This document shows positions 6,614 through 27,059 of a DNA stretch of 64,000 nt, piece by piece. The translations under genes and the position numbers were made by a program. Where the stretch lies: NCBI RefSeq assembly GCF_018070565.1, contig NZ_JAGPXL010000021.1, positions 1-64,000 of the forward strand, in the 5' to 3' direction. A model generated the notes under the pieces. It made no database searches and was not told where the DNA came from. It saw nothing but the letters and a program-made list of their open reading frames with translations. This DNA is from Streptomyces sp. B93 (lineage in GTDB: Bacteria; Actinomycetota; Actinomycetes; Streptomycetales; Streptomycetaceae). How positions within the stretch are numbered: position 1 is the first letter of the stretch; the number at the start of each line of letters is the position of its first letter.

Positions 6614-7891
6614 GTGGGCCTTGTCGTGCAGAAGTACGGAGGCTCCTCCGTAGCCGATGCCGAGGGCATCAAGCGCGTCGCCAAGCGGATCGTGGAAGCG
6701 AAGAAGAACGGCAACCAGGTGGTCGCCGTCGTTTCCGCGATGGGCGACACGACGGACGAGCTGATCGATCTCGCCGAGCAGGTTTCCCCGATCCCTGCCG
6801 GGCGCGAGCTCGACATGCTGCTGACCGCTGGGGAGCGGATCTCCATGGCCCTGCTGGCCATGGCGATCAAAAGCCTGGGGCACAACGCCCAGTCGTTCAC
6901 CGGCAGCCAGGCCGGGGTCATCACCGACTCGGTCCACAACAAAGCCCGGATCATCGACGTCACACCGGGGCGTATCCGCGCCTCGGTGGACGAGGGCAAC
7001 ATCGCCATCGTCGCCGGGTTCCAGGGCGTCTCGCAGGACAAGAAGGACATCACCACGCTGGGGCGCGGTGGGTCCGACACGACCGCCGTCGCGCTGGCCG
7101 CCGCTCTCGACGCGGAGGTCTGCGAGATCTACACGGACGTCGACGGCGTGTTCACCGCCGACCCGCGCGTGGTGAAGAAGGCCCGGAAGATCGACTGGAT
7201 CTCGTTCGAGGACATGCTCGAACTGGCTTCGTCCGGGTCGAAGGTGCTGCTCCACCGGTGTGTGGAGTACGCCCGCCGGTACAACATCCCGATCCACGTC
7301 CGGTCCAGCTTCAGTGGGCTCCAGGGCACCTGGGTCAGCAGCGAGCCGATTACGCGAGGGGAAAAGCAGGTGGAGCAGGCCATCATCTCCGGAGTCGCAC
7401 ACGACACCTCCGAGGCCAAGATCACGGTCGTCGGGGTGCCGGACAAGCCGGGCGAGGCGGCCGCCATCTTCCGTACGATCGCCGATGCCGAGATCAACAT
7501 CGACATGGTCGTGCAGAACGTCTCGGCGGCGTCCACCGGGCTGACCGACATCTCGTTCACCCTGCCCAAGACCGAGGGCCGCAAGGCCATCGACGCCCTG
7601 GAGAAGAACAAGGGCGGCATCGGGTTCGACTCGCTGCGCTACGACGACCAGATCGGGAAGATCTCGCTGGTCGGCGCGGGGATGAAGACCAACCCGGGCG
7701 TCACCGCCGCGTTCTTCGAGGCGCTCAGCGACGCGGGGGTCAACATCGAGCTGATCTCGACATCCGAGATCCGTATCTCGGTCGTCACCCGCGCCGACGA
7801 CGTCAACGAGGCCGTCCGCGCCGTGCACACCGCCTTCGGGCTCGACTCCGACAGCGACGAGGCCGTCGTCTACGGAGGCACCGGGCGATGA
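6614..7891 (+). CDS. ask: Aspartate kinase
   Basis: A 425-residue aspartokinase starting at GTG with GAGGAG 7 nt upstream. The kinase domain opens with [15 protein letters not shown] and contains [16 protein letters not shown] and [13 protein letters not shown]. Two ACT domains follow from about residue 265 ([31 protein letters not shown]), which confer feedback control by lysine/threonine. It phosphorylates aspartate, the first step to Lys, Thr, Met and diaminopimelate. It is coupled to asd by an ATGA overlap. The kinase family of this type normally makes a second, shorter beta subunit from an internal in-frame start (see 7370). Confidence 0.97.
7370..7891 (+). other. Internal in-frame start for the aspartate kinase beta subunit
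   Basis: A GTG at codon 253 of ask is preceded by GAGGGG with an 8-nt spacer, and would yield a 173-residue peptide made of the two ACT domains. In Corynebacterium and relatives the alpha2-beta2 aspartokinase beta subunit is made in exactly this way. The ribosome-site match is seen directly; actual use here is inferred. Confidence 0.65.
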
Positions 7892-8940
7892 CCGGCCGAC
7901 CGACGCTCGCGGTCGTGGGAGCGACCGGGGCCGTCGGCACCGTCATGCTCCAGATCCTGTCCCAGCACGCGGACATCTGGGGCGAGATCCGCCTGATCGC
8001 GTCGCCGCGCTCGGCCGGCCGCAAGCTGGCCGTGCGCGGTGCCGAGGTCGAGGTGGTGGCGCTGGGCGAGGAGGCCTTCGACGGCGTCGACATCGCCATG
8101 TTCGACGTACCCGACGAGGTCTCCGCGCACTGGGCGCCGGTCGCCGCAGCCAAGGGCGCGGTGGTCGTCGACAACTCCGGCGCCTTCCGGATGGACCCCG
8201 ACGTGCCGCTGGTCGTGCCCGAGGTCAATCCGCACGCCGTGCGCAACCGGCCGCGCGGCATCATCGCCAACCCCAACTGCACCACGCTGTCGATGATCGT
8301 CGCCCTGGGCGCGCTGCACGCCGAGTTCGGGCTGCGTGAGCTGGTCGTCTCCTCGTACCAGGCGGTGAGCGGGGCCGGGCGGGCCGGGGTGGAGACGCTG
8401 CGGCAGCAGATCGACCTCGTCGCCGGGAGCGAGCTGGGGACCAGTCCGGGCGACGTACGCCGGGCCGTGGGCGAGAACACCGGGCCGTTCCCGGAGCCGG
8501 TCGCGCTGAACGTCGTACCGTGGGCCGGGTCGCTGGCGGCGGACGGGTGGTCGTCGGAGGAGATGAAGGTGCGGGACGAGTCCCGCAAGATCCTCTCCCT
8601 GCCGCAGCTGCCCGTCGCGGTGACCTGTGTGCGGGTGCCGGTCGTCACCGGGCACTCGCTGACCCTGCACGCCCGCTTCGAGGGCGAGGTGACGGTGGAC
8701 CGGGCCCGCGAGATCCTCGCCACCGCGCCCGGTGTGGTGCTCTGCGACGATCCGGCGGCCGGGGAGTTCCCCACCCCCGCCGACGTGGTGGGCACCGATC
8801 CGACCTGGGTGGGCCGGGTGCGGCGGGCGCTCGACGATCCGACGGCGCTCGAACTCTTCGTATGCGGTGACAATTTGCGCAAAGGGGCGGCGCTCAACAC
8901 GGCGCAGATCGCTGAGCTGGTGGCGACGGAGTTCCGCTGA
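7888..8940 (+). CDS. asd: Aspartate-semialdehyde dehydrogenase
   Basis: A 350-residue enzyme with an N-terminal NAD(P)-binding motif ([15 protein letters not shown]), the conserved ASPRSAGRK phosphate-binding segment and the catalytic cysteine in [14 protein letters not shown] second conserved block [13 protein letters not shown] follows, and the C-terminal half has RVPVVTGHS. It reduces aspartyl phosphate to the semialdehyde, the next step after Ask. The ATG overlaps the ask stop (ATGA), so the two form one operon. No further coupled gene follows; the next 424 bp are non-coding. Confidence 0.97.
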
Positions 8941-18572: not shown

Positions 18573-19541
18573 TCACGTCGTGGCGGCGAGGCCGAGATGG
18601 TCCAGGTACCACGGCGCGGCCTCCCGCAGCCGTGCCGCGTGTCCGGGGCCGACCGGGCATCCGGCCACCCGCCACACGTCCGAGCGGTACCACCGGTCCT
18701 CCGCGAGGAGGCGCGCCTGGTGCCCGGTGGCGCGCCCCGGCTCGGCGTCCAGCCGGCGCACGTACGACTCGGTGTCGAGCCCGTCCGCGGGCACCGGCAG
18801 GCCCAGCGTCCGGCCGAGTTCCCGGACGAAGCCACGCAGGGTGACGGGCTCGGGGTGGGCGGCGTGGTGCACGCTCCCGGCCGGTACGGCGGCGGGATCG
18901 AGGGCGAGGGCGGCGAGCAGGCGGCCCAGGTCGTCCACGGCGACGAACGACAGCCGCGCCCGCCCGTCCTCGACGAGGGCGGGGACCCGGCGCAGCATGT
19001 CGGCGATCATCGGTACGACCCACAGGTCGCCGGGTCCGTGGACCAGCGGCGGCCGGACCACGACCCCTCCGGTGGCGCGCACGGCCCGCTCGGCGAGCAG
19101 CCGGGTGCGGCTGGTGGGGGAGGAGGGCACGGTCGGCGCCCCGTCCTCGGGCAGGTCGCGGTGGGGTCCGGCGCCGTAGACGGCGGTGGTGCTGAGCTGC
19201 ACGGTCCGCTCCACCCCGGCGCGTGCGGCCTCGGCGAGCAGGGCGTGGGTGCCGTCGACGTTGACGGCGGTGCAGACGTCGTCGTCGCGGCTGATGACGG
19301 AGGCGCAGTGCACCAGGGAGCGCACGCCGTCGCAGGCGCCGCGCAGGGTCCGCGGGGCGGTCAGGTCACCGGTGAGGTAGGTGACTCCGGGGATACGCCG
19401 CTCGGGTCCGGGCAACTGGCGCACGAGCGCGCGGACGGTGCCGGGGGCGGGGCGGGGGCCGGTGGTCAGCGCGCGCAGCACGGCCGTACCGACGAAGCCG
19501 GTGCCTCCGGTGACCAGCACCGCGCGGTCGCCGCCGGTCAC
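18573..19541 (-). CDS. NAD-dependent epimerase/dehydratase in a gamma-butyrolactone locus
   Basis: From a GTG at 19541 (overlapping the afsA stop, GTGA) the protein has 322 residues. It opens with the Rossmann motif AVLVTGGTGFVGTAVLRAL and continues as an extended short-chain dehydrogenase with STTAVYGAG near the expected catalytic Ser/Tyr; the conserved YxxxK reads less clearly (SRTRLLAER), so catalysis may be altered. Similar proteins (for example ScbC of S. coelicolor) sit beside AfsA-type synthases and are thought to tailor the butyrolactone side chain or ring. Coupled expression with AfsA supports this. Confidence 0.82.
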   Translation of the reverse strand: MTGGDRAVLVTGGTGFVGTAVLRALTTGPRPAPGTVRALVRQLPGPERRIPGVTYLTGDLTAPRTLRGACDGVRSLVHCASVISRDDDVCTAVNVDGTHALLAEAARAGVERTVQLSTTAVYGAGPHRDLPEDGAPTVPSSPTSRTRLLAERAVRATGGVVVRPPLVHGPGDLWVVPMIADMLRRVPALVEDGRARLSFVAVDDLGRLLAALALDPAAVPAGSVHHAAHPEPVTLRGFVRELGRTLGLPVPADGLDTESYVRRLDAEPGRATGHQARLLAEDRWYRSDVWRVAGCPVGPGHAARLREAAPWYLDHLGLAATT

Positions 19542-20488
19542 GGCAGGGGGTCCGGGCCGGGGGCGCCGAGGGTGACCAGGCCGGTCGCGGCGGGCCCGGC
19601 GGACTGGCGCAGGGTGACCCGGACCGAGGCGCGGCCGGGGGAGGGGGCGGGGCCGGGTTCGGCGGTGAGGGTGCAGGGTTCGTCGAGTTCGACGTACCGG
19701 TGGAACTCGGCGTCCAGCGCGGGCGCGACGGCGTGGGGGCGGCCGGTGGCGGCGGCGGCCGTCTGGCGCATCGCCTCGATGAGGGCGCGGCCGGGCACGT
19801 GGTCGCTCTGGCTGTCGAAGATGACGGGGTGGTCCTGGTCGACGCGGAGCAGCCAGGCGCCGGGGCGGCCGGAGGGGGCGATGAGGACGTCCTCGGCGCG
19901 GTCGCGTCCGACCTGGGCGGGGGGCAAGGGCGCGGGCAGCGGGGCGGGTGCCGCGGGCCGGGGGCGGGGCGGGCGCAGTCGGCGGTAGGCGGCGGCGGAG
20001 ACGCAGGTCGCCCGGCAGGCGCCGGTCCCGATGAGCAGGGACTCCCGGCGCAGTTCGACCTCCAGCTGGAACTCCGAGAGTTTCCCGCCGCGCAGCCGTA
20101 CCTCGGGGCAGCGCACGACGGCCTCGGTGGGGGCGAGCGGCAGACCGGCCGTGTGGATGGCGTCGGGGACCTCGTAGCGCAGGTTCCACAGCAGGAAGTG
20201 CTGGCCGAGCGGGGCGTCGTAGGCGAGGTGGGAGACGACGGCGCCGCACTGGCGGACGGTCTCCGCCATCAGCATCGGGTTCTCACGGCCGTCCGCGGTG
20301 GGGGCGAACAGGGCGTGGGCGTGCGGCCAGCGCACGGCGATCCGGTAGGTGCCGTCGGCGTCGGCCGTGAAATGGGAGAGCAGCACGTCATCGTCGGCGT
20401 TGCGGTGGACATACTGCTGAGGGATGGTCATCTGCGCCGGGGCGACGCCCTCGGCGGGGATCGGCACGGCGCCACTGAGCACGGTCAT
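19538..20488 (-). CDS. afsA: AfsA/ScbA-type gamma-butyrolactone synthase
   Basis: A 316-residue protein with the tandem hotdog-like AfsA domains: the first about residues 15-150 (PQQYVHRNADDDVLLSHF ... MAETVRQCGAVVSHLAYD ... HFLLWNLRYEV) and the second about 190-300 (HPVIFDSQSDHVPGRALIEA). ATG 20488 has GAGGG 7 nt upstream. AfsA condenses a beta-ketoacyl carrier thioester with dihydroxyacetone phosphate, the key step in gamma-butyrolactone autoregulator synthesis. It is divergent from a receptor gene and followed by an epimerase. An ARE-like palindrome lies about 60 bp upstream (20548-20569). Confidence 0.93.
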   Translation of the reverse strand: MTVLSGAVPIPAEGVAPAQMTIPQQYVHRNADDDVLLSHFTADADGTYRIAVRWPHAHALFAPTADGRENPMLMAETVRQCGAVVSHLAYDAPLGQHFLLWNLRYEVPDAIHTAGLPLAPTEAVVRCPEVRLRGGKLSEFQLEVELRRESLLIGTGACRATCVSAAAYRRLRPPRPRPAAPAPLPAPLPPAQVGRDRAEDVLIAPSGRPGAWLLRVDQDHPVIFDSQSDHVPGRALIEAMRQTAAAATGRPHAVAPALDAEFHRYVELDEPCTLTAEPGPAPSPGRASVRVTLRQSAGPAATGLVTLGAPGPDPLP

Positions 20489-20547
20489 ACGGTATCCCTC
20501 GGTGAAGGGCGGTTCGTTTGAGTAGCTCTTGAACGAGGAGTCTGCCA

Positions 20548-20569
20548 AAAAACCAGCTGGACGGTTTCT
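20548..20569. promoter_or_regulatory. Autoregulatory element (ARE)-like palindrome upstream of afsA
   Basis: ACC and GGT half-site cores are separated by 8 nt (AACC-AGCTGGAC-GGTT). Against the ArpA consensus half-site GG(T/C)CGGT(A/T)(T/C)G(T/G), the right half matches 9 of 11 positions and the left half 8 of 11. It lies about 60 bp before the afsA start, in its promoter. Binding by the adjacent receptor is inferred. Confidence 0.7.
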
Positions 20570-20587
20570 TACGGTCCCTCGTATCGG

Positions 20588-20603
20588 TGTGATTTGCATC
20601 ACG
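20588..20603. promoter_or_regulatory. Crp-like palindrome between afsA and the receptor gene
   Basis: TGTGA-TTTGCA-TCACG matches the classic TGTGA-N6-TCACA motif at 9 of 10 positions. Against the S. coelicolor Crp motif GTGN6GNCAC it differs only at the central G (A here). It sits between two ARE-like elements in the divergent promoter. Confidence 0.5.
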
Positions 20604-20671
20604 GCAGCTGGTGGCGGCCCTTGACGGACCAGCGAAACCACGTAAGCCGATCTATATCGTTTCTTGATAAA

Positions 20672-20693
20672 ACAAACCGTGTAGTCGCGTAAG
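20672..20693. promoter_or_regulatory. Second, weaker ARE-like element near the receptor gene
   Basis: The left half ACAAACCG matches the ARE half-site well (8 of 11), but the right half (AGTCGCGTAAG) matches only 6 of 11. It ends 38 bp before the receptor ATG, where autorepression would be expected. Confidence 0.4.
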
Positions 20694-20731
20694 CTCCCGG
20701 TGCACCAGCTTGAGACGGTGGAGGACGAGAC

Positions 20732-21397
20732 ATGGCGAAGCAGGCCCGAGCGGTCCACACGCGACGCGTGATCGTGGAAGCGGCGGCGAGCGTCTTCGAC
20801 GACTACGGCTACGAGCGTGCCGCCCTCTCCGAGATCCTGCGCCGCGCCGAGGTCACCAAGGGCGCCCTGTACTTCCACTTCCCGTCCAAGGAGTCGCTGG
20901 CCCAGGCGATCATGGACGAGCAGACCACCCGGGTGAAGGTGCCCGAGGACGGCTCGCGGCTCCAGGCCGTCATCGACATCACCCACCAGTTCGCCCACTC
21001 CCTGGTGCACGACCCGCTCGCCCGCGCCGGTACGCGGCTGTCGATCGAGGGTGTCTTCCTCAACGGCGTACACCCCTGGGGCGACTGGTTCGACCTGGTC
21101 GCCCGGCTGCTCACCGAGGCCAAGCAGGCGGGCGAGGTGCTCCCGCAGGTGGTGCCGGAGGAGACGGCCGAGTTCATCGTCTCCGCCTTCACCGGCGTCC
21201 AGCTGGTCTCCGAGGCCATCAGCAAGCGCACCGACCTGCGCGGCCGGGTCGCCGTCCTGTGGCACCACATCCTGCCCGCCATCACCCACCCCGGCGTCAT
21301 CGTCCACATCACCCCGGAGGGCGCCATGGACCCGGCGGTTGCCCTGGAGGACACCGAGACGGTGGCGCTGGTGCCGGTGACCCCCTCCGCGTCCTGA
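20732..21397 (+). CDS. scbR: Gamma-butyrolactone receptor-type TetR regulator (ArpA/ScbR family)
   Basis: A 221-residue TetR-family protein. The N-terminal HTH reads AALSEILRRAEVTKGALYFHF with SKESLAQAIM, typical of the butyrolactone-receptor subgroup. The ligand domain contains GVHPWGDWFDLVARLL, which carries the Trp expected in the butyrolactone pocket of ArpA/CprB. ATG 20732 follows GGTGGAGG at 9-10 nt. It is divergent from afsA, and such receptors repress their own gene and the synthase until the autoregulator binds. The symbol is given by similarity to S. coelicolor scbR; true receptors and antibiotic-sensing pseudo-receptors can be hard to separate without a tree. Confidence 0.9.
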   Translation: MAKQARAVHTRRVIVEAAASVFDDYGYERAALSEILRRAEVTKGALYFHFPSKESLAQAIMDEQTTRVKVPEDGSRLQAVIDITHQFAHSLVHDPLARAGTRLSIEGVFLNGVHPWGDWFDLVARLLTEAKQAGEVLPQVVPEETAEFIVSAFTGVQLVSEAISKRTDLRGRVAVLWHHILPAITHPGVIVHITPEGAMDPAVALEDTETVALVPVTPSAS

Positions 21398-22007: not shown

Positions 22008-22619
22008 TCACCACCGCTCCAACGGCGTGGTGAACCGCAGTTCCGTGCGGTCACCGGGCAGCCTCACCCGGGTGACCTCCACGACCCGCCCCCGCACGTC
22101 GTACGAGATCTTGTGCAGCACGATCACCGGCGCACCCGGGGGCAGCTCCAGCTCCCGGCGCTCCCCGGCGGTCGGTGGCCGGGCGGTGAGGCGCTCCTCG
22201 ACGCGGTCCACCTCGACGCCGACGGTGCGCAGCTGGTGGTGGGTGCCGCCGGGCCAGGGCTCGTTGGCCTCGTCGAGGAGGGCGGGGTTGGCGGCGATCA
22301 GCTCGCGCGGGAGGTAGGAGGCGCTGAGGCCGAAGGGCGTCCGCCCGTTGGCGCACCGGGTGCGGTAGACGCGCTCCAGCAGGGCGGTGCCCTCCGGTAC
22401 GCCGAACAGGCGGGCGAGTCCGGGGTCCGCGCCGGTCTCCCGGTAGCTGGCGTGGAAGACGAGTTCCTCGGAGCCGAGGCCGGTGTCGCGCTCGGTGACC
22501 CCGGTCCGTCGGCGCTGGGCCTCCGGCTGCCGCGCCCGGTCCTTCTCCCACTGGTGGCGGCGGTTGTCGCGGATGGCGAGGGGACGGACGGGTTCCTGGT
22601 CGTCGTAGGCCTCTGGCAC
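22008..22619 (-). CDS. UTRA-domain protein lacking a GntR DNA-binding domain
   Basis: A 203-residue protein from a GTG with GGGAG upstream. Residues about 50-200 match the UTRA ligand-binding fold of HutC/GntR regulators: LLERVYRTRCANGRTPFGLSASYLPREL near the middle and ERLTARPPTAGERRELELPPG with VIVLHKISYD near the end (quoted in parts). The N-terminal 40 residues are charged (RDNRRHQWEKDRARQ) with no winged helix. Stand-alone UTRA proteins of this kind are common in actinomycetes and may be ligand sensors or remnants of a GntR gene. No frameshifted HTH is visible upstream. Confidence 0.75.
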   Translation of the reverse strand: MPEAYDDQEPVRPLAIRDNRRHQWEKDRARQPEAQRRRTGVTERDTGLGSEELVFHASYRETGADPGLARLFGVPEGTALLERVYRTRCANGRTPFGLSASYLPRELIAANPALLDEANEPWPGGTHHQLRTVGVEVDRVEERLTARPPTAGERRELELPPGAPVIVLHKISYDVRGRVVEVTRVRLPGDRTELRFTTPLERW

Positions 22620-22781: not shown

Positions 22782-25700
22782 TCACCGGCCGCACGGCGGG
22801 TCGTACGAGAGGCGGGGCAGGTACTCCTGCCACTTCTCCTCGGTGAGCACGCCCCGTGTCGTGGCGCAGATACGGCCGATGGCGTCGTCGACGTCGAGGT
22901 TCCACAGCCGGACCGTGTCGGTGCCGCTGGAGACGCCCAGCATGTTCGTCCTGGGGCTGAAGGAGAGGAAGTTGCCGGTGCGGGAGTTGGGGCTCATCGA
23001 GTGCCCGATGGGCGCGGCGTCGGCCGGTCGGGCGACGTCCCACAGCCGTACGGTGTTGTCGTTGCTGCCGCTGGCCAGGGTGTGCCCGTCCTCGCTGAAG
23101 CTCAGCGACACCAGCGCCTCGGTGTGCCCCGTGAGCGTGGCGACCGCCTCGGGCGTGTCGATGTCCCACAGCCGTACGGTGTTGTCGTTGCCGCCGCTGG
23201 CCAGGGTGCGCCCGTCCGGCGCGAACGCGAGCGCGTTGACGGGACCCCCGTGCCCCCGGAGCGGAGCGCCGCGCGGGCGCGCGTCCCGGGGATCGCCGAC
23301 ATCCCACAGCCGTACGGTGTGGTCCGAGCTGCCACTGACGAGGGTGCGCCCGTCCGGGCTGAAGACCAGCGCGTTCACATACCCCTTGTGCCCGGTCAGC
23401 GGTGTGCCGAGGGGGCGCGGCCGGGCCGGGTCGGTGACGTTCCACAGCTGGATGGTGCGATCGGTCCGCGGGGTCGCCAGGGTGCGCCCGTCGGGACTGA
23501 ACGCCAGCGCGTCCGGGCCCGCGAACCGGGTCTGGAGGGCGACCGGTGCCCCGTAGGGGACCGGCTCGGCCGGATCGGAGACGTTCCACAGCTGCACGGC
23601 TCGATTGGCGAACAGCACGGCGAGGACACGGCCGTCGGGGGAGTACGCGAGGTTCCGCCAACCGCCGTCCCCCTCCATGAAGGGCTTGCTCAGCGGCTTG
23701 GGCCGGGCGGGCTTCCGTACGTCCCACAGCCGGATGCGCCCGTCCCGCGCGGCCGTGGCGAGCACCTGCCCGTCCGGCCGGAACACCCCGCTGCGGCCGA
23801 TCATGTCCGCGGTCGGTATCGACCACAGCCGGACCTTGCTGTCGCCGCTGCCGGTGGCCAGGGTCCGCCCGTCCGGGCTGAAGCCGAGCGCGTACATCTC
23901 GCCGCTGCTGCCCGCCAGCGGCTCACCGACCTGCGAGGGGTACGCCGGATCGCTCACGTTCCACAGCGACGCCGTGCTGTCCGCGCTGGCCGCGGCGAGC
24001 ATCTGGCCGTCCGGGCTGAAGTCGACCGACCAGATGGCACCGGTGTGCCCGGTCAGCGGCGCCCCCAGGGGCCGCAGCTCCTCCGGGTCGCCGATGTCCC
24101 ACAGCCGTACGGTGTCATCGGAGCCGCCGCTGGCCAGGGTGCGGCCGTCCGGGCTGAACGCCACCGAGTGCACCGTGTCCATGTGCCCGTCGGGCGGCTC
24201 GGGCAGCGCCCGCGGACTCCGCGGCCGGCGTACGTCCCACAGCCGCAGGGTCCCGTCGTCGCCGCCCGCCACCAGCGTCCGGCCGCCGGGGCCGAACGCC
24301 ACCGACCGTACGGCGGCGGTGTGCCCGATGAGCGGCTCGCCCAGCGGCCCGGCCTCCGCGGGGTCGGTGACGTCCCACAGGCCGACCGTCCGGTCCTCGC
24401 TCGCGGAGGCCAGGGTGCGGCCGTCCGGGCTGAACGCCAGCAGGTACACCGTCCCTTCGTGCCCGGCCAGCGGCGCCCCCACCGGCCGGGGCCGCGCGGG
24501 ATCCCGTACGTCCCACAGCCGGATCGTGCCGTCGTCGGAGGCGCTGGCCAGGGTGCGGCCGTCCGGGCTGAACACGGCCGTGCTCACCCAGCTGCCGTGC
24601 CCGCGCAGCGGCTCCCCCAGGGCACGCGGGCGGCTCGGGTCGGACACGTCCCACAGCCGGACGGTACGGTCGTAGCTCGCCGTCGCCAGGACCTTCCCGT
24701 CCGGGCTGAACGACGTCAGGTAGACGGCGCCGGTGTGCCCGAGCAGCGGCGTGGCCAGCGGCGCGTTCACGATCGAGACCAGCCGGTTGCGGGTCCCCGC
24801 GTCGTCCGGCCGCAACCGGTGCGCCACCAGGTCGATCTGCGCCGACAGCGACGGATCGGAGTCCTGCACCCGGTCCGCCTCCGCGACCACCTGCTCGAAC
24901 ACCGCGTCGTCCCGCTCCTGCCAGGCGATCACCGCCGCCCACACCGCGATCGCCGACAGCGCCACCAGCGCCGCCACCGCCGCCCGGCTGACGATCGTCG
25001 TCCGCCGCCGCAGCCGCACCGACGCGGCCAGGAACTCCACCGCGCTGCGCGTCAGGAACGTGTCCCCCGCGGACCGCGACCAGTCATGCGCCTGGTCGAG
25101 CCGCGACCCCCGGTACAGCAGCGCGCTGTCCCGGCCGCTCTCCTCCCAGGCCCGGCCGTCCTCCTCGAGGCGCTGCCGCAGCAGATGGCCGCCGCGGTCC
25201 TCGTCGATCCACTCCCGCAACCGCGGCCAGGCGTGCAGCAGCGCCTCATGGGTGATCTCCACCGTCTCCGCGTCCAGCGTCACCAGCCGCGCCCGCACCA
25301 GCGCCTCCAGCGACTCCTCCGTCTTGCCCGGGTCCGCCGACTCCGCCGCCAGCTGCCGCCGGGTGCCCCTTCTCCGGGTGGCCTGGGTGTCCTCACCCAG
25401 CCTGACCAGCCGCAGCAACAGCAGCCGCGCGGCGGTGCGGGCCGCCGGGTCCAGGCTGGACCAGGCCCGCTCGGCGGTCGCCGCGACGGCACCCTGGATG
25501 CCGCCCGCCGCCCGGTAACCGGCCAGCGTCAGCCGCCCCGCCTTGCGCCGCTGCCAGGTCGCCAGCAGCGCGTGCGACAGCAACGGCAGCACACCGGCGT
25601 CGTGCGCCCCGCGCGGACCGTCGGCGCTGACCTCCCGCAGGATCAGCTCGGCGAGCCCCGGCTCCAGCTCCAGCCCCACCGCCTTCGCCGGGCCGGTCAC

Positions 25701-27059
25701 CGCCTCCCGCAGCTCGGTGGTGGTCAGCGGCCCGAGCACCATGTGCCGGTGCTGCAACGCGTCGGCCAGCTCGGGGTAGTCCAGGCAGCGCTCGTAGAAG
25801 TCGGCGCGGATTCCGAGGACGACGAGGGCGGGGGCGGTGCCGCCGCCCTCGGCCGGTGTGCTCACGGCGTGCAGCAGGCGGATGAAGGCGCGGCGTTCGG
25901 CTTCGTCGGGGCAGAGGGTGAACGTCTCTTCGAACTGGTCGATGATGAGGACGGGGGGACGGTGGGGGGTGCCGGGACGAAGGGGGGTGCTGGGGGCGTC
26001 AGGGATGCTGGGGGCGTCAGGGGTGGCGGTGGTGCTGGGGGTCACGGTGCTGGGGGTCGCGCTTGTGCCCGGGGTAGCGGTGGTGCTGGGGGCCCCATGC
26101 GCGCCGGGAGCGGCGGGGGCGCCCGGGGCCGCAGGGGGGCCGCCTGAGGCGGCAGGGGCGTCGCCGTCGGTCTCGGCGCGGGCGGCGGCTTCGCGGGCGC
26201 GCCGGTCGAACTCCGCGGTGACGGCCTCCCGGGCCCGCTCGGCGCACACCGAGCCCTCTGCGCCCTCCGGGCCCTCTGCGCCCTCCGAACCTCCCGCGCG
26301 GTCCGCCCCGTCCGTGCGGTCGAGGAGGTCCGCGAGCCCGGGTATTCGGCGGGTCAGCTCCTTCAGCGGATCACCTCCCGGGACGAGCTGGACGACCTCC
26401 CGCCCGCCGTTCCCATCCCCGCCCCCGTCCCCGTCCAGCACCCCGCTCCGGAGCGCGGGCACGAGCCCGGCGTTGAGGAGGGAGGACTTCCCGGCGCCGG
26501 ACGCCCCCACCAGCATCACCAGCCCACCGGTGCCCTCGGCCGCCCGCAGCTGCCGTACGAGCGCGTCGGTGCTGCGCGCCCGCCCGAAGAACCACCGGGC
26601 GTCCTCCGGCCGGTAGGAGGCGAGCCCGCGGTAGGGACACACCCCGCCGGGCACGGCGGGGGCATCCCGCTCCTCGCGCCCCTGACCGTCCCCCTCCCCG
26701 GACCGGTCGTCGGCGGTGACCGGCACCCCGACCGCGGTCTCCCACAGCCGCTGCCACTGCCCGAGGTCGTAGAGCCCGGGGGAGACGGGGGTGGGCCGCA
26801 GCCGCCGCGCGTCGGGGATCAGTACGTGGAGCACCGCGGCCAGCGCGGTGAACTGCGCCGGTACGTTGCGGGCCCGCCGCCAGTCGCTGATCCGCTGCGC
26901 GGAGACCCGTACGGGCCGCCCCCGCTCGTCCACCCGCTGCAACCGGCCGACGGCCTCGGAGACCCGTTTGAGGGGAGGATCACCGGCCTCCTTGTAGAGC
27001 AGCGCGAGACGCTCCGCGAAGGCCGTACGTGCCCCGGCGTCGGAACCCAAGGCCTCCAC
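22782..27059 (-). CDS. HTH-nSTAND NTPase-WD40 membrane-anchored protein
   Basis: A 1425-residue multidomain protein. Residues about 10-90 are an XRE-like helical region (RVSAQRISDWRRARNVPAQF). The nSTAND NTPase starts at CPYRGLASYRPEDARWFFGR, with Walker A GASGAGKSS (185-193) and Walker B VLIIDQFEE (about 368). A Pro/Thr/Ala-rich insert lies between them, around residues 250-350. A single membrane helix (about 686-711) precedes fourteen WD40 repeats from about 771, enough for two seven-bladed propellers, many with near-identical FSPDGRTLASG and TVRLWDV segments. STAND proteins act as ligand-triggered switches; relatives serve signalling or anti-phage defence. GTG 27059 has GGGGGAG upstream. 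Confidence 0.9.
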   Translation of the reverse strand: MEALGSDAGARTAFAERLALLYKEAGDPPLKRVSEAVGRLQRVDERGRPVRVSAQRISDWRRARNVPAQFTALAAVLHVLIPDARRLRPTPVSPGLYDLGQWQRLWETAVGVPVTADDRSGEGDGQGREERDAPAVPGGVCPYRGLASYRPEDARWFFGRARSTDALVRQLRAAEGTGGLVMLVGASGAGKSSLLNAGLVPALRSGVLDGDGGGDGNGGREVVQLVPGGDPLKELTRRIPGLADLLDRTDGADRAGGSEGAEGPEGAEGSVCAERAREAVTAEFDRRAREAAARAETDGDAPAASGGPPAAPGAPAAPGAHGAPSTTATPGTSATPSTVTPSTTATPDAPSIPDAPSTPLRPGTPHRPPVLIIDQFEETFTLCPDEAERRAFIRLLHAVSTPAEGGGTAPALVVLGIRADFYERCLDYPELADALQHRHMVLGPLTTTELREAVTGPAKAVGLELEPGLAELILREVSADGPRGAHDAGVLPLLSHALLATWQRRKAGRLTLAGYRAAGGIQGAVAATAERAWSSLDPAARTAARLLLLRLVRLGEDTQATRRRGTRRQLAAESADPGKTEESLEALVRARLVTLDAETVEITHEALLHAWPRLREWIDEDRGGHLLRQRLEEDGRAWEESGRDSALLYRGSRLDQAHDWSRSAGDTFLTRSAVEFLAASVRLRRRTTIVSRAAVAALVALSAIAVWAAVIAWQERDDAVFEQVVAEADRVQDSDPSLSAQIDLVAHRLRPDDAGTRNRLVSIVNAPLATPLLGHTGAVYLTSFSPDGKVLATASYDRTVRLWDVSDPSRPRALGEPLRGHGSWVSTAVFSPDGRTLASASDDGTIRLWDVRDPARPRPVGAPLAGHEGTVYLLAFSPDGRTLASASEDRTVGLWDVTDPAEAGPLGEPLIGHTAAVRSVAFGPGGRTLVAGGDDGTLRLWDVRRPRSPRALPEPPDGHMDTVHSVAFSPDGRTLASGGSDDTVRLWDIGDPEELRPLGAPLTGHTGAIWSVDFSPDGQMLAAASADSTASLWNVSDPAYPSQVGEPLAGSSGEMYALGFSPDGRTLATGSGDSKVRLWSIPTADMIGRSGVFRPDGQVLATAARDGRIRLWDVRKPARPKPLSKPFMEGDGGWRNLAYSPDGRVLAVLFANRAVQLWNVSDPAEPVPYGAPVALQTRFAGPDALAFSPDGRTLATPRTDRTIQLWNVTDPARPRPLGTPLTGHKGYVNALVFSPDGRTLVSGSSDHTVRLWDVGDPRDARPRGAPLRGHGGPVNALAFAPDGRTLASGGNDNTVRLWDIDTPEAVATLTGHTEALVSLSFSEDGHTLASGSNDNTVRLWDVARPADAAPIGHSMSPNSRTGNFLSFSPRTNMLGVSSGTDTVRLWNLDVDDAIGRICATTRGVLTEEKWQEYLPRLSYDPPCGR

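Follow-up and report, generated by a model that had tools for sequence, protein, structure and literature searches.

A probable gamma-butyrolactone-type autoregulator cassette from a rare AfsA branch in Streptomyces sp. B93

Does Streptomyces sp. B93 make and sense a hormone of its own, and which genes would such a hormone control? The question is raised by three genes at positions 18573-21397 of the DNA analysed here (below, the window: the initial 64 kb of the 109-kb contig NZ_JAGPXL010000021.1, in a genome of 8.0 Mb and 134 contigs), which encode an AfsA-type gamma-butyrolactone (GBL) synthase, an epimerase-like short-chain dehydrogenase/reductase (SDR) and a divergent receptor of the ScbR/ArpA type. 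An earlier note, made from the sequence of the window, had described them as a complete-looking synthase, epimerase and receptor cassette, and the gene calls and family cut-offs bear this out. In our view the three genes very probably constitute a self-contained and intact GBL-type autoregulator cassette, of a known class and from a rare branch of it. Judged from its genes, the strain probably makes and senses its own diffusible hormone by means of this three-gene set.

The synthase and the receptor

All three reading frames of the cassette are intact. The synthase gene afsA, or gblA (19538-20488, minus strand), is followed by gblE, which encodes an extended SDR/epimerase of the JadW2 type (18573-19541, minus strand); the stop codon of afsA and the start codon of gblE share the GTGA at 19538-19541, and for this reason the two genes are probably translationally coupled. 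The gene gblR, encoding an autoregulator receptor of the TetR family (20732-21397, plus strand), diverges from afsA, and the 243-bp intergenic region between them (20489-20731) is, as its layout indicates, the promoter region for both the afsA and the receptor sides; scans of the locus for sigma-70 promoters and terminators gave no matches.

The AfsA product scores 309.6 bits against NF041195 (ScbA/BarX; cut-off 200) over model positions 1-289 of 290, contains two stretches of the AfsA hotdog domain (PF03756) and keeps the residues H28, E76, R79, Q80, D229, H230, E238 and R241, each conserved in at least 92% of 47 homologues. In the tree of these homologues it pairs with the synthase of genome G019 alone (support 100/100), the shared branch being long (1.05 changes per column). 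Two motifs are altered in the synthases of the window, G019 and G173, the last of which was found after the tree and carries the residues of the window branch too: NPM stands where nearly all others have DPM or DPL, and IFDSQSDH[VL]PGR..IEAMRQ where most homologues have LFDHPVDHVPGM..LEAARQ. The genomes searched hold no synthase above about 50-52% identity to that of the window, and a scan of genome contigs returned only distant synthases (35-43% identity). By sequence, the window synthase and its closest relatives thus appear as a rare, deep AfsA branch with unusual motif substitutions. Since AfsA homologues less than 50% identical may still produce the same signal (PMC12301235), this distance alone is no proof of a different product. 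The genome also holds a second AfsA sequence (C94:1-379, L061), which is 44% identical to the window AfsA and consists of the C-terminal half only, being ended by the contig start; no N-terminal half belonging to it turned up in the assembly.

The receptor scores 224.6 bits against NF041196 (ScbR family; cut-off 150), and its best match in the PDB is AvaR1 (6wp7, E=1.7e-42). It carries Q64, W119 and T154, identical to the corresponding triad of AvaR1, whose positions we take to be ligand contacts, and the triad is invariant in all 14 members of the receptor clade. In a tree of 48 sequences the window receptor clusters with those of G005, G011 and G019 (clade support 100/99) and falls outside a second-copy clade bearing an NGALH-type recognition helix, which contains the genome's own paralog from contig C127, with an isoelectric point (pI) of 10.8, and other second copies. 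From this context we infer that the NGALH clade, C127 included, is pseudo-receptor-like, the named pseudo-receptors not being in the tree (our trees were built without the named ScbR2, SrrB, ScbA and JadW2). The pI of the window receptor is 5.7; an acidic to neutral pI is typical of genuine receptors, and a basic one is common in pseudo-receptors (PMC7480387). The divergent position next to afsA, the acidic pI, the AvaR1 triad and the place in the tree all point to a genuine receptor. A grouping among pseudo-receptors, which the earlier note had named as the result that would speak against its reading, did not occur when it was checked with proxies in the 48-sequence tree.

The genome encodes at least three further receptors of the ScbR family, on contigs C76, C24 and C127, of which the C24 paralog groups with CprB and the C76 one is of the AfsA-adjacent type. 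The receptor of a record titled Microtetraspora glauca NRRL B-3735 (JOFO01000066.1; L012/L018) is a close neighbour of the Streptomyces hydrogenans receptor; because of this grouping, and of its placement in the genus of the window, the record has probably been given a wrong name or been reclassified.

The SDR without a catalytic tyrosine

The SDR matches the Epimerase family of Pfam (PF01370) with 85 bits and reaches no NCBIfam equivalog cut-off. When it is aligned with 4id9, its segment T143-S-R-T-R147 stands against Y-G-L-T-K, with T143 at the position of the tyrosine and R147 at that of the lysine, so that both catalytic residues of the classical extended SDRs are absent. The lack of YxxxK noticed earlier is confirmed, T143-SRT-R147 being in its place. 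The earlier note had further supposed that the role of the enzyme may be lost, and this is not supported. In all 20 GblE-type relatives compared (from Streptomyces, one record titled Microtetraspora and a Rhodococcus plasmid, without JadW2 itself) the tyrosine is absent and arginine replaces lysine, within the shared motif [TAVL]-S-x-[TS]-R; an HpnA outgroup retains both residues (Y..SK). As the same substitution is found in every relative compared, it is a trait of the family and not damage, and we dropped the reading of a decayed enzyme. The relative JadW2, moreover, was reported to be essential for butyrolactone synthesis, the step itself not being established; the family is named GblE in the same work (PMC5735094).

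The protein has kept the Gly-rich cofactor motif and, on the active-site strand, the S-T, and is 43-55% identical to afsA-linked SDRs (e.g., those of G019, L013 and L032). The best Foldseek matches of its AlphaFold2 model (mean predicted local distance difference test score 82, loop 121-125 poor) are extended SDRs, among them UDP-hexose epimerases, dehydratases and the decarboxylase EvdS6. We suppose that GblE catalyses a non-classical reaction which would not need a tyrosine-mediated proton relay. The comparison with ScbC proposed earlier appears to be misplaced, for PMC5735094 lists ScbC apart from GblE, as the GblC reductase, and treats the two as separate enzymes; the window SDR matches epimerase-type SDR families and none named for GblC (ScbC/BprA reductase), the ScbC sequence itself not being in the comparison. 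That GblE lacks the SDR tyrosine throughout the family is a tangible hint at the nature of a step in the biosynthesis which published work leaves open.

Operator-like sites and the predicted regulon

Two operator-like sites, to which no strand is assigned, are found in the divergent region. Autoregulatory element 1 (ARE1), the palindrome AAACCAGCTGGACGGTTT at 20550-20567, precedes the start of afsA by about 60 bp; it has the exact form AAACC-N8-GGTTT and differs by one mismatch from the 18-nt operator consensus AAACVGNNBVNNCSGTTT footprinted for SfbR/SfbR2 (PMC7480387). The ARE2-like element, AAACAAACCGTGTAGTCGCGTA at 20670-20691, precedes the start of the receptor gene by about 40 bp. Comparison of the divergent regions of the window, G011 and G019 revealed two 22-mers in which 18-19 positions are conserved, a level matched by 0-2 of 500 shuffles; the ARE2-like element is identical to the G011 upstream region at 19 of 22 positions (equalled by none of 500 shuffles), and cleaner copies of it are present in G011, G019, G173, G005 and G056. 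ARE1 is exact in three of the 14 receptor-clade genomes, those with afsA (window, G019 and G173), and deviates by a single mismatch in G011 and in G217, its position being conserved in all four relatives; at up to one mismatch it was not found in the remaining nine. The 64-kb window holds no second ARE-like site within one mismatch of the consensus. By its sequence, ARE1 is a clear candidate operator on the afsA side.

Starting from what can be read directly from the DNA (gene content and overlap, family membership, pocket residues, and the conserved operator-like sites with their genomic positions), we infer the enzymatic steps, ligand, binding, derepression and regulon as follows. AfsA would condense a beta-ketoacyl thioester with a glycerol-derived partner, and GblE would perform a tailoring step without the classical SDR tyrosine; the product would leave the cell and build up outside. 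Until then the receptor, a TetR-type repressor bound to ARE1 and ARE2, would keep afsA-gblE and its own gene repressed, and entry of the ligand into the Q64/W119/T154 pocket would release it from the DNA. The same receptor may also repress a gene for a Streptomyces antibiotic regulatory protein (SARP) on contig C77, preceded by tandem AREs, and the pseudo-receptor-like gene on C127.

This last step is based on pattern matching in the strain's own genome. In 8 Mb, AAACC-N8-GGTTT occurs exactly in three places: the window, C127:6371 and C44:146045. The C127 site lies 160 bp upstream of the pseudo-receptor-like ScbR paralog (gene at C127:6549), and that on C44 is near hypothetical genes. Tandem sites with one mismatch each, C77:24945 and 24972, lie 50-95 bp upstream of the SARP (BTAD) gene at C77:25040; most single one-mismatch sites lie inside genes or by unremarkable genes. 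With 24 sites at up to one mismatch, 18 BTAD genes in the genome and an upstream span of 300 bp, chance would place about 0.016 sites within that distance in front of any of these genes, and two are observed. The C127 site and one of the C77 sites have no mismatch to the SfbR/SfbR2 consensus on at least one strand. A half-site pattern, ACARACCGNNGGTCGGTT, was tried and rejected, as its 4 matches against 6 in the control are at chance level.

S. rochei has a comparable layout, in which SrrA is the repressor of two genes, srrY for a SARP and srrB for a pseudo-receptor (PMC7296167). We put the chance of an SrrA-like regulon on other contigs of B93, comprising the C77 SARP and the C127 pseudo-receptor-like gene, at a little short of even. 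The earlier note considered the target regulon unknown, and the ARE-like sites at a SARP gene and at a second receptor-like gene now narrow it down. Several observations weigh against the regulon and the pair of sites assumed above. The ARE2-like element of the window is degenerate in its right half; a reversed control pattern gives 11 matches as compared to the 24 at up to one mismatch; and a stricter ARE1 consensus matches the window site only. Furthermore, as at least three other ScbR-family receptors and the second AfsA fragment on C94 are present, some other receptor may be the one that acts at the sites on C77 and C127. It is accordingly a serious possibility, if a somewhat less probable one, that the cassette is functional and regulates mainly itself, the C77 SARP and the C127 gene being controlled through shared AREs by the C76 or some other receptor. 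Besides the stricter consensus, this agrees with the sharing of operators by GBL receptors and pseudo-receptors (PMC7480387) and with the AfsA-adjacent type of the C76 receptor; on the other hand, the C77 and C127 sites are no worse a match to the general ARE than the site in the window.

Should the predicted regulon prove right, the so far unassigned signalling cassette is linked to a specific SARP and an otherwise uncharacterised gene set, and deletion of the receptor or feeding of the signal would be a direct way to try activating that set. The SARP gene on C77 comes after genes for a polyprenyl synthase, a UbiA prenyltransferase, a nucleotide-sugar dehydrogenase, two DegT aminotransferases, an FAD enzyme, methyltransferases and Gfo/Idh oxidoreductases (L110 9946-10885, L130); by content the set appears to be of a biosynthetic, prenyl/aminosugar type. 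A second copy of the SARP gene, 94% identical in DNA to that on C77, is found on C127 (L064 1-699), some 6 kb away from the gene of the pseudo-receptor-like protein; this copy is truncated by the contig end, which cuts into its upstream region.

Distribution, setting and comparison with known systems

The receptor clade is present in 14 of 247 genomes of the genus, and afsA stands beside the receptor in three of the 14 and is absent there in 11. Most of the relatives that carry a name belong to Streptomyces. G019 has the same gene order and orientation as the window (identities of 70% for the receptor, about 46-50% for AfsA and 55% for GblE); the receptor-afsA-gblE layout also occurs in many more distant loci. 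The cassettes of G019 and G173 are located near fhaA/rodA/pbpA-type genes (named from sequence); at this location G005 and G066 carry nothing of the cassette but the receptor, and G011 and G217 have a lone receptor in the same wider region. G011 has no AfsA match at E<=1e-30 anywhere in the genome. In G173, afsA is present and gblE absent (L146 7619-9402). A response-regulator-like gene directly follows afsA in G173, as it follows gblE in G019.

The window cassette sits at a different place, beside a conserved block of TrkA-N, ArsP permease and TIGR03943 genes. The earlier description of the cassette as embedded between housekeeping genes is not supported: conservation is confined to this left flank, and the stretch after TIGR03943, which the cassette opens, differs in gene content in nearly every relative; in G022, UTRA and nSTAND genes come next without the cassette. 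Relocation or horizontal gain of the window cassette is likely. Ask- and asd-like genes (named from sequence) are indeed nearby, at 6614-8940, about 10 kb away. On the variable side, a UTRA-domain protein (22008-22619, minus strand), in which no GntR helix-turn-helix was matched, adjoins the gene of a 1425-residue nSTAND1 NTPase with a long WD40 array (22782-27059, minus strand), whose only PADLOC match is that of the WD-repeat region to HEAT-ARM_XIII. The occurrence in G022 (L076) of a 67% identical UTRA homologue beside a 75% identical nSTAND homologue suggests that the two are a linked pair.

The frequent absence of afsA beside the receptor, together with the absence of gblE in G173, would also fit a decaying cassette, in which afsA-gblE are being lost and the receptor is retained to listen to other strains, as in the relatives lacking afsA. 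We regard this as improbable for the window, where the three frames are intact, the conserved residues retained, the genes overlapping and the afsA-side ARE exact. That the receptor is a pseudo-receptor answering antibiotics and not butyrolactone, as do ScbR2 and SfbR2 of the same superfamily (PMC7296167, PMC7480387), is more improbable still, even with a tree without named pseudo-receptors, given its divergent afsA neighbour, its AvaR1 triad, its pI of 5.7 and its position outside the second-copy clade. Returning to the intact cassette, we tentatively suggest, as one possibility, that the window, G019 and G173 share a separate signalling dialect, with a deep AfsA branch and a distinct autoregulator, and that most relatives listen without speaking, since they have dropped the synthase and kept a ligand-competent receptor. 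The receptors without a neighbouring synthase and with an invariant triad make a clean test case for eavesdropping in Streptomyces.

Among the known systems, the same three gene families make up JadW1-JadW2 with its receptor in S. venezuelae and GblA-GblE-GblR in Rhodococcus jostii RHA1, and there, too, the receptor is divergent from the synthase and GblE linked to it (PMC5735094). The GblE of the Rhodococcus p52 plasmid resembles that of the window in lacking the tyrosine and having arginine for lysine. Unlike the JadW system, the window has no adjacent JadW3-like dehydrogenase; it also differs from both the JadW and Gbl systems in that its synthase belongs to a separate deep AfsA branch (in a tree without JadW1 itself) and that the cassette lies outside any obvious antibiotic cluster. 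The SfbR/SfbR2 system of S. filipinensis has an 18-nt operator like ARE1, and its cluster includes Sfb5, an epimerase of the nucleoside-diphosphate-sugar type (PMC7480387); the window differs in the one mismatch of ARE1 and in having no cytochrome P450 gene adjoining the cassette. The SrrX/SrrA/SrrB/SrrY system of S. rochei (PMC7296167) is similar in that the receptor is predicted to repress a SARP gene together with a pseudo-receptor gene whose product is basic (pI 10.8 for the C127 product and 11.2 for SrrB); this regulation was proven by footprinting in S. rochei and is only predicted in B93, where the parts are on separate contigs. AvaR1 of S. avermitilis (6wp7) belongs to a different receptor clade, but is the best solved structural relative of the window receptor, with identical Q/W/T residues.

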